A stretch of DNA of 40,872 bases from a virus. The notes beneath the pieces were generated by a model. It did no database searches. It saw nothing but the letters and a program-made list of their open reading frames with translations, and was not told the origin of the DNA. Of this stretch, positions 37,483 to 40,872 are shown piece by piece; the stretch's first letter is position 1; every line of letters begins with the position of its first letter. The stretch covers positions 1 through 40,872 of the IMG/VR virus record IMGVR_UViG_3300036715_000986; one strand, 5' to 3'. The position numbers and the translations under genes were made by a program.

Positions 37483-37727
37483 GCTGTCCTCCTTGTTGGC
37501 TCTTCTGCTATCAAGAGTTTCTCCGCATCAGACCATCTCATAATGCTAAATACGCCTTGTGGTATGCCCAAGCCTTCATACACCCTCAGCCCACACACAT
37601 GCTGAGTCGGAACAATGGCAAACACATCGGGAGCAGCTAGAATCACATACCGCTGCTGGTGTATAAGCACTTGCAACTCGCCGCGCGTCCTGCCGGCTAC
37701 CTCTTTCGTCAATTCTGTGAGAGTCAT
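37479..37727 (-). CDS. 82-residue antitoxin-like (Phd/YefM outline) or small regulatory protein
   Basis: Reads MTLTELTKEVAGRTRGELQVLIHQQRYVILAAPD, with strands and helices in an order broadly like short DNA-binding antitoxins, though I see no firm signature. AAGGAGG precedes ATG 37727. It lies just after the serine recombinase stop (10 bases). No toxin partner is visible. Confidence 0.5.
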   Translation of the reverse strand: MTLTELTKEVAGRTRGELQVLIHQQRYVILAAPDVFAIVPTQHVCGLRVYEGLGIPQGVFSIMRWSDAEKLLIAEEPTRRTA

Positions 37728-37737
37728 TATCTCCTCC

Positions 37738-38487
37738 TTATCCTGTCAGGATTCTCTCATGCTTCCCTTGTGCTATGATGCCACCATAGCTGTATTCGCC
37801 ACAGTAGAGACTCTTGCGGTCAAGGACACGCTTTACCTGCGCCGCGTGCCACTCCTTTCCTTCATGTGTGGTGAGGCCGCGCGCGTTCATCTCCGCAGCG
37901 ATATGACGCATGGGGAGACCTTGGGCGCGGAGAGTGAAAATCTGGTTGACTGTCTTTGCCTGCTCCGGCTCAACGGTGAGGACGTGACTGCCACGCGCAG
38001 CACCATAGCCCAACGGCGCACCGCCACCGGCGTAGCCACCTTGACGGGCTTTTGCCACGCGCCCACCGCTCATGCGGCTGGTGATGCGAGCCTTCTCGAA
38101 CTCCGCGAACGCGCCGATGATTTCACGGAAGAGACGCGACGTCGGGTCGCTCCCGTTCGTCGGCTCTGAAACGCTAACGATCTCCACGCCTGCCTTCAGC
38201 AACTCCTTCTCGATCCACAGCTGAAGCATGAGGTCACGCGCAACCCTGTCTAACTTCGCCACGATGACTGTGGTAAAAGAGTGCAGAGATGCAGAGGAGA
38301 GGAGATCAGAGAGACCTGGGCGGTCGAGCGTTGCGCCGCTGAAACCCGCGTCTTCGAACCATAGCCCAATTTCCATGCCACGTGCATGGGCGTAGGACGT
38401 AATGTCGGCGCGTTGCGCGTCGAGGCCGTACCTGTCTGCGCCTGCCTGAGCGTCTGTGCTAACTCTCAAATACGCTGCAACAACCAT
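37738..38487 (-). CDS. Serine recombinase (resolvase domain plus short recombinase domain)
   Basis: 249 residues. The catalytic Ser 10 sits in AYLRVSTDAQ, with DRVARD (80-85) and EFEKARI helix. The resolvase fold covers about 1-140. A second part (about 155-240) matches the first segment of the recombinase domain, including PLGYG and IFTLRAQGLPMRHIAAEMNARG. It is larger than resolvases (about 185) but far shorter than large serine integrases (450-600), so it may mediate inversion, resolution or integration. ATG 38487 has AGGAGG 8 bases upstream. Its start lies inside a repeated motif. Confidence 0.88.
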   Translation of the reverse strand: MVVAAYLRVSTDAQAGADRYGLDAQRADITSYAHARGMEIGLWFEDAGFSGATLDRPGLSDLLSSASLHSFTTVIVAKLDRVARDLMLQLWIEKELLKAGVEIVSVSEPTNGSDPTSRLFREIIGAFAEFEKARITSRMSGGRVAKARQGGYAGGGAPLGYGAARGSHVLTVEPEQAKTVNQIFTLRAQGLPMRHIAAEMNARGLTTHEGKEWHAAQVKRVLDRKSLYCGEYSYGGIIAQGKHERILTG

Positions 38488-38587
38488 AGCCTTACCTCCT
38501 TTCATAGTATACCACAATTACCATAGCTCAACTTTTTGACCATAGCCTGATTTCCACCATAGCTCAACTTCCTGAAACCACCATAGC
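38483..38587 (-). repeat. Five GCTATGGT repeats upstream of and overlapping the recombinase start
   Basis: On the plus strand ACCATAGC occurs at 38483, 38520, 38539, 38556 and 38580, with alternating flanks CTCAACTT and CCTGRYTT. On the coding strand these read TGAGCTATGGT or CAGGCTATGGT. The first copy overlaps the recombinase start codon. Five further copies in the same direction lie at 36409, 37011, 37783, 38002 and 38358. This may be the recombinase binding site, an autoregulatory operator or the attachment region. Confidence 0.7.
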
Positions 38588-38700
38588 CTGGCTTCCAGGG
38601 ACGGGGACGGTTGCGCGTTGGCGCTCGGTTCCTGCACTCCCTGCGTCTGAAAAGAACGGCACTGGAGTCAATGACTCCGGCGCCGTCGGGCTGGACGCTC
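38588..38700. other. Spacer with a perfect dyad near the recombinase
   Basis: GGAGTCA (38664-38670) and TGACTCC (38672-38678) form a 7-bp dyad around one A. No ORF with a ribosome binding site is visible in this interval. Together with the five repeats it makes a 213-base control region ahead of the recombinase gene. Confidence 0.5.
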
Positions 38701-38907
38701 CTAGCCTACGTCACCACCAAGCGCGTGCGCCTCTGCCTTCTCGAACTGGTTCCAGTCCTGGGTCTCAAAAGCACGGTCAAGGCCAAGTGTGCGCTTTACG
38801 ATAACTGGGTGTTCAGATTTCTCATGCCACAGATAGTAGCTTGCCCTGTTGCGCTTGACGAGCGTGAGTCTGTTCTCAAAAAGATGGTCTCTGTTTATAG
38901 TCTTCAT
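38701..38907 (-). CDS. 68-residue protein, first gene after ribozyme A
   Basis: Begins MKTINRDHLFENRLTLVKRN and contains YYLWHEKSEHPVIVKRTLG, a strand and helix mix. AAGGAG precedes ATG 38907. The 5' end made by ribozyme A would lie 52 bases upstream. Unknown function. Confidence 0.62.
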   Translation of the reverse strand: MKTINRDHLFENRLTLVKRNRASYYLWHEKSEHPVIVKRTLGLDRAFETQDWNQFEKAEAHALGGDVG

Positions 38908-38954
38908 CCTTGATCTCCTTGCCGGTTGGTGGAGTTTTCCGGCTCTCCAAATAG

Positions 38955-39005
38955 ACTGCTACGGCGCAAAAGCGCCGTTTCGCTGTTATCAGCTCATCAG
39001 GCAGC
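38955..39005 (-). ncRNA. Hammerhead ribozyme A (type I)
   Basis: Read leftward: stem I GCTGC/GCAGT (one G-U pair), core CTGATGA (39000-38994), stem II GCTG-loop ATAA-CAGC, GAAA (38981-38978), stem III CGGCGC-TTTT-GCGCCG, then T-A and the return of stem I. G10.1-C11.1 and A15.1-U16.1 are intact. Cleavage is expected after the A at 38960 (GUA). It lies 6 bases after the stop of the preceding gene. Confidence 0.92.
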
Positions 39006-39010
39006 CAAAC

Positions 39011-39196
39011 TCACCACGCACCCCCGACGCCTCCCGATCCGCTCGGTTTCCCGTCGCCAAAGAGGACGCTGAAAGCGATCCAGAAAAACAGAACCAGCAT
39101 ACCAGCCACAGCACCGGCAGCAACCAGCAGGCGCCGGCCGATGCTCAAACTAGGAGCAGCAGCCACAACATGGGATGCTTTCGCGGCCCACTTCAT
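39011..39196 (-). CDS. 61-residue single-pass membrane protein
   Basis: ATG 39196 follows GGAGAG and overlaps the previous stop. After MKWAAKASHVVAAAPSLSIG comes RRLLVAAGAVAGMLVLFFWI, a membrane helix, and a Gly/Ser-rich tail (GDGKPSGSGGVGGAW). Second gene of the module between ribozymes D and A. Unknown function. Confidence 0.62.
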   Translation of the reverse strand: MKWAAKASHVVAAAPSLSIGRRLLVAAGAVAGMLVLFFWIAFSVLFGDGKPSGSGGVGGAW

Positions 39197-39396
39197 GCTA
39201 CACTCTCCGACACCTTGCAAGTGTCAGCCTTCGCGCACGTCCGGCACGTTTCCGTACCGGCCCAGACACATCCACGGACGGAAAGCGCCTCGATCTTTTC
39301 GCGGGCCGCGTCGATGCGGTCCACCGCCTCCCAATCCTCGTCCAACATTGCTCGCTCCCATTGCCTCTGCAATACTTCCATTGTTGAGCCCTTCAT
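39193..39396 (-). CDS. 67-residue protein with C-terminal Cys cluster
   Basis: The first half is helical and acidic (RQWERAMLDEDWEAVDRID; AAREKIEALS). The second half has Cys at GCVWAG, ETCRTCAKADTCK: four Cys that may bind zinc. AAGGAG precedes ATG 39396, and the 5' end from ribozyme D lies 62 bases upstream. Unknown function. Confidence 0.62.
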   Translation of the reverse strand: MKGSTMEVLQRQWERAMLDEDWEAVDRIDAAREKIEALSVRGCVWAGTETCRTCAKADTCKVSESVA

Positions 39397-39453
39397 GCTT
39401 CCATCTCCTTACTACAGGCTCACAGTCGTCCAGACTGCGGGATGATTTGGCTA

Positions 39454-39518
39454 TCATCGACACGGCACCGGTATGGCGTCGTGTTTCGTCCTGGAGCTGC
39501 CAGGACTCATCAGGATGA
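39454..39518 (-). ncRNA. Hammerhead ribozyme D (type I)
   Basis: Read leftward: stem I TCATC/GATGA (39518-39514 with 39458-39454), core CTGATGA (39513-39507), stem II GTCCTGG-CAGCT-CCAGGAC, GAAA (39487-39484), stem III CACG...CGTG extended by CGCC/GGTG with a bulge, then T-C and stem I. Cleavage is expected after C at 39459 (GUC). All three stems differ from the other copies, yet every core base is kept. It begins 8 bases after the stop of the preceding gene. Confidence 0.92.
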
Positions 39519-39525
39519 GGAAAAA

Positions 39526-39735
39526 TCAGAAACTCCGGCTGAACGCAAAAACAATCTCTTGCCTTCCGCCAACATCACGCCTGAGTATCGCACTTGTGCA
39601 CTTATGGGAGCGGTAATATTGGGCCGCGTCTTCCAGTGTGATATACCAGAGCGTAACAACATCGTCAAGATTGTTCCACATCCACAAAATATAGTCTCCG
39701 TATGCCATCCCGCGTCTCCCGTCTCCAAATGCCAT
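39526..39735 (-). CDS. 69-residue aromatic protein
   Basis: MAFGDGRRGMAYGDYILWMW then NNLDDVVTLWYITLEDAAQY, rich in aromatics and Asp. GAGGAGGGG lies before ATG 39735, inside the end of the upstream gene. The alternative overlapping frame (39510-39740) is rejected because its stop would lie inside ribozyme D. Unknown function. Confidence 0.6.
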   Translation of the reverse strand: MAFGDGRRGMAYGDYILWMWNNLDDVVTLWYITLEDAAQYYRSHKCTSAILRRDVGGRQEIVFAFSRSF

Positions 39736-39736
39736 T

Positions 39737-40093
39737 TCACCCCTCCTCTTCTTCATCCAGCCTGCAATCGATCCCTACTGCCGCGCGGTTATAATCGTTG
39801 TCGGGAATAGGATTAAATGAGATGTACAGCGGCCATCCCCGAGGGTCGGTTTGGTGATAGACGTAGAGTCCAACATTAGCAGCGATTGCGTCGGCCATCT
39901 TCTGGAGCTTCATAGCCACGCGGTCATTGCTATCTGCATCAATATCAGTTTCGGGGATGTCACCGTTGCAGTTGTCCTCATAGCGTCTATGGAGCGCCTT
40001 TCCAATCTTCACGAGTTCTGCAACTGTGTCTAAGAGCATCCCAAGCTTGTAGGTCTCCATTGTTGGGACCTTCCCGCGGTTGTCTGTAAGCAT
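39737..40093 (-). CDS. 118-residue protein, unknown
   Basis: A helical N-terminal half (YKLGMLLDTVAELVKIGKAL) is followed by IPETDIDADSNDRVAMKLQK and a beta end (YVYHQTDPRGWPLYISFNPI). GAGGAGATA precedes ATG 40093. It is the first gene after ribozyme B, whose cut would lie 42 bases upstream. Unknown function. Confidence 0.65.
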   Translation of the reverse strand: MLTDNRGKVPTMETYKLGMLLDTVAELVKIGKALHRRYEDNCNGDIPETDIDADSNDRVAMKLQKMADAIAANVGLYVYHQTDPRGWPLYISFNPIPDNDYNRAAVGIDCRLDEEEEG

Positions 40094-40130
40094 TGTTTTA
40101 TCTCCTCTGCGTATGCCCGCCGGCGTATGA

Positions 40131-40187
40131 ACTGCGACGCCTGCCCAGCGTGGCAGGCGTTTCGTCCTTTTGGACTCGTCAGGCAGT
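40131..40187 (-). ncRNA. Hammerhead ribozyme B (type I)
   Basis: Read leftward: stem I ACTGC/GCAGT, core CTGACGA (40182-40176, where N7 is C), stem II GTCC-AAAA-GGAC, GAAA (40163-40160), stem III CGCCTGCC-ACGCTG-GGCAGGCG, then T-C and stem I. Cleavage is expected after C at 40136 (GUC, the favoured triplet). Its first base overlaps the stop codon of the preceding gene (40187-40189). Confidence 0.93.
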
Positions 40188-40423
40188 CATAACTCGTTTT
40201 GTGCTCTCCACGCTATATCTGCGTCGCTCCCAGCGATAAACGGCGAGCCGAGCAACTCCGCGCTGGTAAAGCCGAGCAGGAGCGCCACGGAGCAGACTTC
40301 GTTTGAGCGAGCGTCGGCCCGTTCCTTTTCTATTCGTCTCCCTTCCCTGCGTGCTGCGTTATATTTGTCGTCCCATTTCCTCATTTCAGATCGCAACATC
40401 TCCAACACTTGCAACCGGTCCAT
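40187..40423 (-). CDS. 78-residue charged helical protein
   Basis: MDRLQVLEMLRSEMRKWDDKYNAARREGRRIEKERAD is a long amphipathic, possibly coiled-coil helix, followed by SVALLLGFTSAELLG. GAGGAAAAG precedes ATG 40423. Its stop meets ribozyme B. Unknown function. Confidence 0.62.
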   Translation of the reverse strand: MDRLQVLEMLRSEMRKWDDKYNAARREGRRIEKERADARSNEVCSVALLLGFTSAELLGSPFIAGSDADIAWRAQNEL

Positions 40424-40425
40424 TT

Positions 40426-40581
40426 CTACTTTTCCTCAGAGGCCGCGAGCTTTTCCGCTTTTTCTAAATCGTCTTCAACGCCACGCAGCAAAGCCGCGAT
40501 CTCCTCACTCGCGCCGGCCGTATTCACTGCGTCCAGAGCGAATAGAACATCTCTAATCTCGCCCTTTAATGTCTTTGCCAT
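40426..40581 (-). CDS. 51-residue acidic helical protein, first gene of the leftward operon
   Basis: MAKTLKGEIRDVLFALDAVN followed by TAGASEEIAALLRGVEDDLE: helical and acidic. GGGAGAGGAG lies upstream. Ribozyme C lies 37 bases upstream, so after cleavage its mRNA would begin 41 bases ahead of the ATG. Unknown function. Confidence 0.62.
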   Translation of the reverse strand: MAKTLKGEIRDVLFALDAVNTAGASEEIAALLRGVEDDLEKAEKLAASEEK

Positions 40582-40617
40582 GTTCTTCTATCTCCTCTCC
40601 CTATTGGGGCCATTCTA

Positions 40618-40674
40618 ACTGCTACAGCGCCGCTGTGGCGCTGTTTCGGCCCTTCTTGGGCCTCATCAGGCAGT
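40618..40674 (-). ncRNA. Hammerhead ribozyme C (type I)
   Basis: Read leftward: stem I ACTGC/GCAGT, core CTGATGA (40669-40663), stem II GGCCC-AAGAA-GGGCC, GAAA (40647-40644), stem III CAGCGCC-ACAGC-GGCGCTG, then T-A and stem I. Cleavage is expected after A at 40623 (GUA). It is the first element of the leftward transcript and separates the leader from the first gene. Confidence 0.93.
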
Positions 40675-40745
40675 ATATTCACACACGCCACAGCTTCAGC
40701 ACCTGTGGCGGTCGGTTTACCGAATCGCTGGGCCGGTCTGTAACC
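40675..40745 (-). promoter_or_regulatory. Leader/promoter-side region of the early operon
   Basis: CGCCACAG and CTGTGGCG (within about 40685-40710) form an 8-bp stem, and TCGGTTTACCGA just after it is a perfect dyad. TATACT at about 40670 on the minus strand is a possible -10 box, but I find no convincing -35, so the early promoter may lie further right (in 1-600). The region joins base 1 in the circular form. Confidence 0.45.
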
Positions 40746-40872
40746 TCTACTCCCAGCGGGACTTGATCGGCGCGTCCCTTGTGCAGCCTACGGGGCCGGA
40801 CGCTATGAGAAGGTGCGGTGTTGAATGTTTACGATGAAAGAATAGCGACAGACGGGAGAAACGCAATAGACA
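40746..40872. repeat. Terminal direct repeat, right copy (circular contig overlap)
   Basis: Identical to bases 1-127. The overlap length equals a common maximum assembly k-mer, so it is best removed when circularising. Confidence 0.95.

Follow-up and report, generated by a model that had tools for sequence, protein, structure and literature searches.

Four hammerhead ribozymes between the gene modules of an early-type phage operon, with a candidate role in cutting its mRNA

Background

The purpose of hammerhead ribozymes in bacteria and phages is an open question: a 2017 review noted that in phage-linked regions they are found near one another, around small ORFs, and left their role open (PMC6155905). 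The same question is raised by the window analyzed here, the whole 40,872-base stretch of an IMG/VR virus record: what do four hammerheads do in series within one operon of small genes? The phage group to which the window belongs supplies what single examples lack: i) orthologous ribozymes with compensatory changes; ii) a swap of a hammerhead for another hairpin at one border; iii) loss of single modules; iv) recurrent U4C cores. With such natural variants at hand, hammerhead function becomes testable by natural and engineered comparison.

Genome and operon

The window carries an exact 127-bp terminal repeat (positions 1-127 and 40746-40872) and thus is probably a complete closed circular map; a related contig, L004, spans the junction. 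Terminase, SPP1-type portal, minor capsid and HK97-type capsid proteins are encoded on the plus strand, and serine recombinase, helicases, replication initiation, primase and methyltransferase on the minus strand. The capsid is closest to those of phages of Acutalibacter, Faecalibacterium and Clostridioides and of gut phages, which makes a Clostridia host likely. The hammerhead operon (Table 1) opens the minus-strand half of the genome, whose gene content suggests early expression, and it ends in a terminator-like hairpin similar to one at the equivalent place in the related contig L005. Among 50,697 records searched, no isolated phage matched this operon, or any of three unrelated hammerhead arrays, at the DNA level.

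Promoters or terminators as the divider between modules were considered and rejected: no promoter-like or terminator-like site on the minus strand of 37700-40872 passed the scanner, though it likewise passed over the two such elements seen by eye at the operon ends. A second promoter (TATACT/TATGAT) right before the first hammerhead was rejected too, as RNA would then start inside the ribozyme in most relatives.

Table 1. Features of the hammerhead operon and of a hairpin in related contigs (window positions unless a contig is named)
Feature	Position	Strand	Details
Promoter-like element TTGCGT-N16-TATTCT	40839..40866	minus	upstream of leader; by eye
Conserved structured leader RNA	40679..40808	minus	non-coding, just 5' of H1; model R1 match 119.7 bits
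Hammerhead 1 (H1)	40611..40681 (40681-40611)	minus	type I, GUA; stems I/II/III 5/5/8 bp; last base before cut 40623
51-aa gene, module 1	40426..40581	minus	ORF calls; family not found in Pfam or PHROGs
78-aa gene, module 1	40187..40423	minus	UGA stop within 5' strand of H2 stem I
Hammerhead 2 (H2)	40124..40194 (40194-40124)	minus	type I, GUC; stems I/II/III 6/4/9; last base before cut 40136
118-aa gene, module 2	39737..40093	minus	orthologues in L005, L051, L054
69-aa gene, module 2	39526..39735	minus	ORF calls and comparison with relatives
Hammerhead 3 (H3)	39447..39525 (39525-39447)	minus	type I, GUC; stems 5/7/9, one stem III mismatch; last base before cut 39459
Candidate snap-back hairpin GATGAT-AGCCAA-ATCATC	39441..39458	minus	at 5' end that H3 would release; re-pairs with compensatory changes in 4/4 H3 orthologues
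67-aa gene, module 3	39193..39396	minus	ORF calls and comparison with relatives
61-aa gene, module 3	39011..39196	minus	one hydrophobic segment
Hammerhead 4 (H4)	38948..39012 (39012-38948)	minus	type I, GUA; stems I/II/III 6/4/7; last base before cut 38960
68-aa gene, after H4	38701..38907	minus	last of operon; ORF calls
Terminator-like hairpin, T-rich tail	38649..38687	minus	closes operon; by eye
Serine recombinase (resolvase/integrase)	37738..38517	minus	next gene downstream of operon; PF00239, PF07508; phrog_95
Hairpin ATATGYTGAAGG..CCTTGAACGTAT	L005 1598-1642; L051 near 8461, L054 near 6833 (reverse-complement coordinates); L064 2898-2942	plus (L005, L064)	

Four complete hammerheads

When both strands of the 40,872 bases were scanned for the core, the three helices and NUH, exactly four hammerheads emerged; all are on the minus strand, at the places where an earlier note, made by reading the sequence, had put four type I elements with complete cores. 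The core CUGANGA ... GAAA ... NUH was complete in 4/4 copies, each with three helices at the core, an open-ended stem I and loop-closed stems II and III. The cuts from H1 to H4 would lie 487, 677 and 499 nt apart, with 41, 42, 62 and 52 nt from each cut to the next start codon; these recomputed values agree with the fragment lengths and the 41-62 nt spacing that the note had given. Loop-loop contacts are required for fast hammerhead cleavage at cellular Mg2+; by eye, stem I held an internal loop and outer pairs in H3 and a bulge in H2. Unconstrained folding in wider context often disfavoured stem I (H3, H4), which leaves it uncertain how efficiently the native RNA would be cleaved.

The strict scan gave 0 matches in 100 Markov shuffles of 41 kb, and a looser one gave a single match in 1.63 Mb; a chance origin of the matches is refuted. 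The Rfam/Infernal search that the note had proposed as a check gave a divided answer: no match in the window passed a gathering cut-off, and sub-threshold hammerhead matches fell at all four places (best Hammerhead_1 at H3, 24.9 bits against a cut-off of 34). The missing gathering match is a threshold matter and carries little weight, because larger and clearer arrays miss the cut-off too: there were 0 gathering matches in 15 related or independent loci, most of them with obvious hammerheads. As all phage hammerhead arrays seen here were missed in this way, Rfam annotation undercounts them.

The phage-linked RAGATH-1 variant (RF03152) gave sub-threshold matches at H1, H2 and H3, none of which passed its cut-off of 56.3 bits (18.9-25.8 bits, best 25.8), and, unlike it, the window copies have a full helix as stem II. 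A closer likeness to RAGATH-1 was seen by eye in L038/L061, from another phage. The analysis supports the reading of the four elements as genuine type I hammerheads between the gene modules of an early-type operon, conserved in related phages.

Covariation in related phages

Protein and DNA pattern scans yielded nine related contigs: L004 (near-identical to the window), L005, L051 (the same contig as L008), L052 and L053 (identical in this region), L054, L055, L056 and L064/L065. Eight of the nine keep hammerheads, which bears out the conservation in related phages that the note had made a test of its reading; L064 has the leader only. H1 has counterparts in L005, L051, L052/L053, L054, L055 and L056, H3 has orthologues in L051, L054 and L056, and H4 has one counterpart, in L056.

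Across the 13 hammerheads of the group, 99.5% of cells were paired, 36 cells had changed on both sides, compared with 10.1 in shuffles, and the covariation score was 0.550 as against 0.056-0.112 for slid partners; kinship inflates the shuffle tests, and the slid controls retain it. The four H3 orthologues alone contributed 5 pairs changed on both sides. The note had seen strong covariation among the window's own copies; four non-orthologous copies make a weak argument, and it is the orthologues that display it. With compensatory changes in all three stems across related contigs, the hammerheads are, on this comparative evidence, selected RNAs.

A U4C core (CCGAYGA) is present in a hammerhead of the relatives, Hb, and in H3 of L056. 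Such U4C hammerheads stand at conserved places with covarying stems (L051 near 7162, L054 near 5332, L056 near 6975 (reverse complement) and L005 813); this core is slow in vitro, yet sufficient for viroid infectivity (PMC3088659).

Exchange of gene modules at the ribozymes

With H for hammerhead and gene lengths (aa) in brackets, the window reads H1[51,78]H2[118,69]H3[67,61]H4[68], and its relatives read H1[115,60]H3[62,57]H4 (L056), H1[108]Hb[121,80]H3[71,111,64].. (L054), H1[69,137]Hb[63,84]H3[71,102,52].. (L051), H1[121]Hb[112,73,36].. (L005) and H1[70,37]... (L052). The genes that follow H1 therefore differ: a 51-aa gene in the window, a 115-aa gene in L056, an orthologue of the 118-aa gene in L005 and L054, another 69-aa gene in L051 and an orthologue of the 67-aa gene in L052. 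Judged by these orders, modules are gained and lost at the ribozyme borders while the hammerheads persist. The rule of exactly two genes per module, claimed in the note, describes the window (51+78, 118+69 and 67+61 aa) and goes no further: modules hold 1, 2 or 3 genes in the relatives and 1-3, up to 12, in unrelated arrays. Nor is the array essential, to go by the relatives, because L052/L053 has H1 alone and L064 a leader without a hammerhead.

In L005, L051 and L054 the H4 place is taken by an unrelated, conserved long hairpin, ATATGYTGAAGG..CCTTGAACGTAT. The same kind of hairpin, instead of H1, follows the leader in L064. It may be another processing site, and the swap looks as if a boundary element were wanted at the H4 place.

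A conserved stretch, CCC..ATAGGGAGAGGAGG, surrounds the Shine-Dalgarno sequence (SD) just after H1 in L005, L051, L052 and L054 and may be a translational operator or an exchange site. In L051 it is repeated before the second gene, where there is no hammerhead.

A structured leader before H1

A folded leader of ~125 nt was found in eight distinct phages (the window, L005, L051, L052, L054, L055, L056 and L064), in seven of them immediately 5' of H1. In its alignment 95.5% of cells pair and 9 pairs have changed on both sides (slid controls 0-2), 8/9 of them in helices P_A and P_C; one more hairpin, TAGTC-TGA-GACTA or CGGCC-CCGTA-GGCTG, is paired in every member, though imperfectly so in L064. 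The relatives have promoter-like hexamers at the equivalent alignment position, ~40-60 bases upstream of the leader, but these are degenerate in places.

No Rfam family matched at the leader in the window, L064 or L055; the search of L064 and L055 gave one sub-threshold match to a miRNA model, on the hairpin after the leader. A scan of 391 genomes from a single bacterial class, the one to which a Clostridia MAG belongs, gave no match to the leader model; this says little, as the host may belong elsewhere. The leader is a candidate new phage RNA and may be a separate discovery. More tentatively, leader and H1 could together make up a new phage element, in which a folded sensor, an antiterminator or a released small RNA gets its 3' end from the adjoining hammerhead; this tandem of structured domain and hammerhead would control or process early transcription, and the cassettes behind it would carry ribozymes that may switch translation (H3).

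A predicted switch of the ribosome site at H3

Further downstream the RNA repeats the 5' strand of stem I, and the 5' end that H3 would free is predicted to pair with this copy. The pairs are GATGAT/ATCATC in the window, GATGATA/TATCATC in L056 and GATGGA/TCCATC in L051 and L054. Between the folded and the cleaved state the predicted unpaired fraction of the SD rose from 0.55 to 0.84 in the window, 0.50 to 0.80 in L056, 0.10 to 0.69 in L051 and 0.51 to 0.75 in L054; in L051, CTCCA of the snap-back region otherwise pairs with the SD itself. The 5' terminus created by cleavage at H3 probably folds back on itself, and the ribosome site of the following gene probably becomes accessible. The snap-back pairing also competes with stem I before cleavage, so that cleavage at H3 would race with transcription. 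The idea that SD opening applies to every hammerhead was rejected (mean change about +0.05 over 36), the effect being confined to H3 in this group. The snap-back hairpin was likewise rejected as a general rule, the copy-of-stem-I signal being not significant (P of 0.17) once L062 (an unrelated array) and two H3 orthologues were left out.

Proposed processing and its alternatives

The reading that we hold to be probable is that the early mRNA is cut in cis by its four hammerheads and that this processing insulates small gene cassettes. The operon, beginning with the leader, would be transcribed as one RNA, which the four cis-acting type I ribozymes would cut into a ~210-nt leader, split off by H1, three two-gene mRNAs and a final one-gene mRNA. 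H2, H3 and H4 each lie between an upstream stop codon and the next ribosome-binding site. On each upstream piece stems II and III would remain as a pair of hairpins that ends flush at the 2',3'-cyclic phosphate, each downstream piece would start with a 5'-OH 41-62 nt before a start codon, and the last message alone would lack a hairpin-capped 3' end of ribozyme origin. Insulation is the likely benefit: cassettes with ends of their own would have their own stability and translation and could be swapped without disturbing their neighbours. We infer cleavage in vivo from the full consensus, the covariation and precedent; the fate of the pieces and the gain from processing we infer as well.

On that fate, the glmS ribozyme is instructive. 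In bacteria this element cuts its own RNA and leaves an mRNA with a 5'-OH, as is proposed for the elements here; it differs in being ligand-dependent, single and of another ribozyme class, and its 5'-OH product is degraded by RNase J1 in B. subtilis (PMC3328962). Thus 5'-OH ends can, by analogy, destabilise RNA in hosts with RNase J1, and the evasion of 5'-end surveillance suggested in the note would depend on the host.

A possible, though doubtful, alternative is that the hammerheads act mainly as switches on single modules: whether the next gene is expressed would depend on ribozyme folding, which a ribosome terminating at the overlapping stop codon may or may not obstruct. Stop codons do overlap stem I or the core, and the predicted SD opening in four H3 orthologues, with a snap-back hairpin that re-pairs through compensatory changes, fits this; the small SD effect at the group's other hammerheads and the P of 0.17 speak against it.

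An improbable reading makes the elements first and foremost units of recombination or hitchhiking: conserved DNA at cassette borders that serves gene exchange, with ribozyme activity secondary. Gene content does change at the borders while H1 and the leader stay, and L051 repeats the stretch after H1 before its next gene without a hammerhead; stems that diverge with compensatory changes around a constant catalytic core are, however, explained by selection on RNA folding and not by homologous DNA exchange.

Cleavage followed by ligation could in principle turn excised modules into circular mRNAs or stable RNAs, as the note had also considered. Ribozymes on both sides of a module would leave 5'-OH and 2',3'-cyclic-phosphate ends, which a ligase could join. 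We regard this as very unlikely here and find nothing for it in the window; Perreault et al. (2011) looked for circles from clustered hammerheads and found none (PMC3088659). Least credible of all are chance matches or decayed ribozymes, for which the missing Rfam gathering match and the U4C variants of relatives might be cited, against 0 matches in shuffles, conserved positions and covariation in orthologues, and canonical cores in 4/4 window copies.

Arrays in unrelated phages

Serial hammerheads between modules, which the note took to be undescribed, were in fact reported by Perreault et al. (2011): clustered hammerheads flank genes or short gene blocks in prophages, the same processing was proposed, and arrays were cleaved in vitro and in E. 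coli, the Agrobacterium tumefaciens array being cleaved in E. coli (PMC3088659). In the prophage arrays of Clostridium scindens, Azorhizobium caulinodans and Agrobacterium tumefaciens, as in the window, several hammerheads on one strand flank single genes or short blocks (PMC3088659). The window differs in belonging to another phage group, in having four type I copies behind a conserved leader in one early-type operon, and in having related contigs that display cassette exchange at the borders. Clustered phage hammerheads have therefore been known since 2011, and what this phage group adds is orthology, covariation, the exchange of cassettes, the leader and the prediction for H3. The HHphage variant of haloviruses HF1/HF2 also lies just upstream of an early phage gene; it differs in being single, before a helicase gene and in viruses of archaea, with a salt-dependent role proposed (PMC3088659).

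One specific pattern matched 32 viral and 7 cellular contigs, not all of which are necessarily true ribozymes. Unrelated contigs carried six (G012/L062), five (G015/L063), five over 28 kb (G014), four (G011/L061, RAGATH-1-like) and 3+2 (a Clostridia MAG, L045/L068) hammerheads on one strand. In these unrelated phages the upstream stop lay within about 10 nt of stem I for most hammerheads, and the next start followed the cut by 26-77 nt with one exception (genes called by a simple script). An architecture shared across unrelated phages argues for a common use.

In ten hammerheads (L061, L062, L066, L067 and L068) the upstream gene's stop codon is the UGA of the core itself (C-UGA-NGA), where a terminating ribosome would cover the ribozyme. 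In the six tandem hammerheads of L062 (G012:C1:31500-42000), the GACU of loop II could pair with an AGUC after stem I, and several of the predicted cleavage products start with a self-complementary hairpin.
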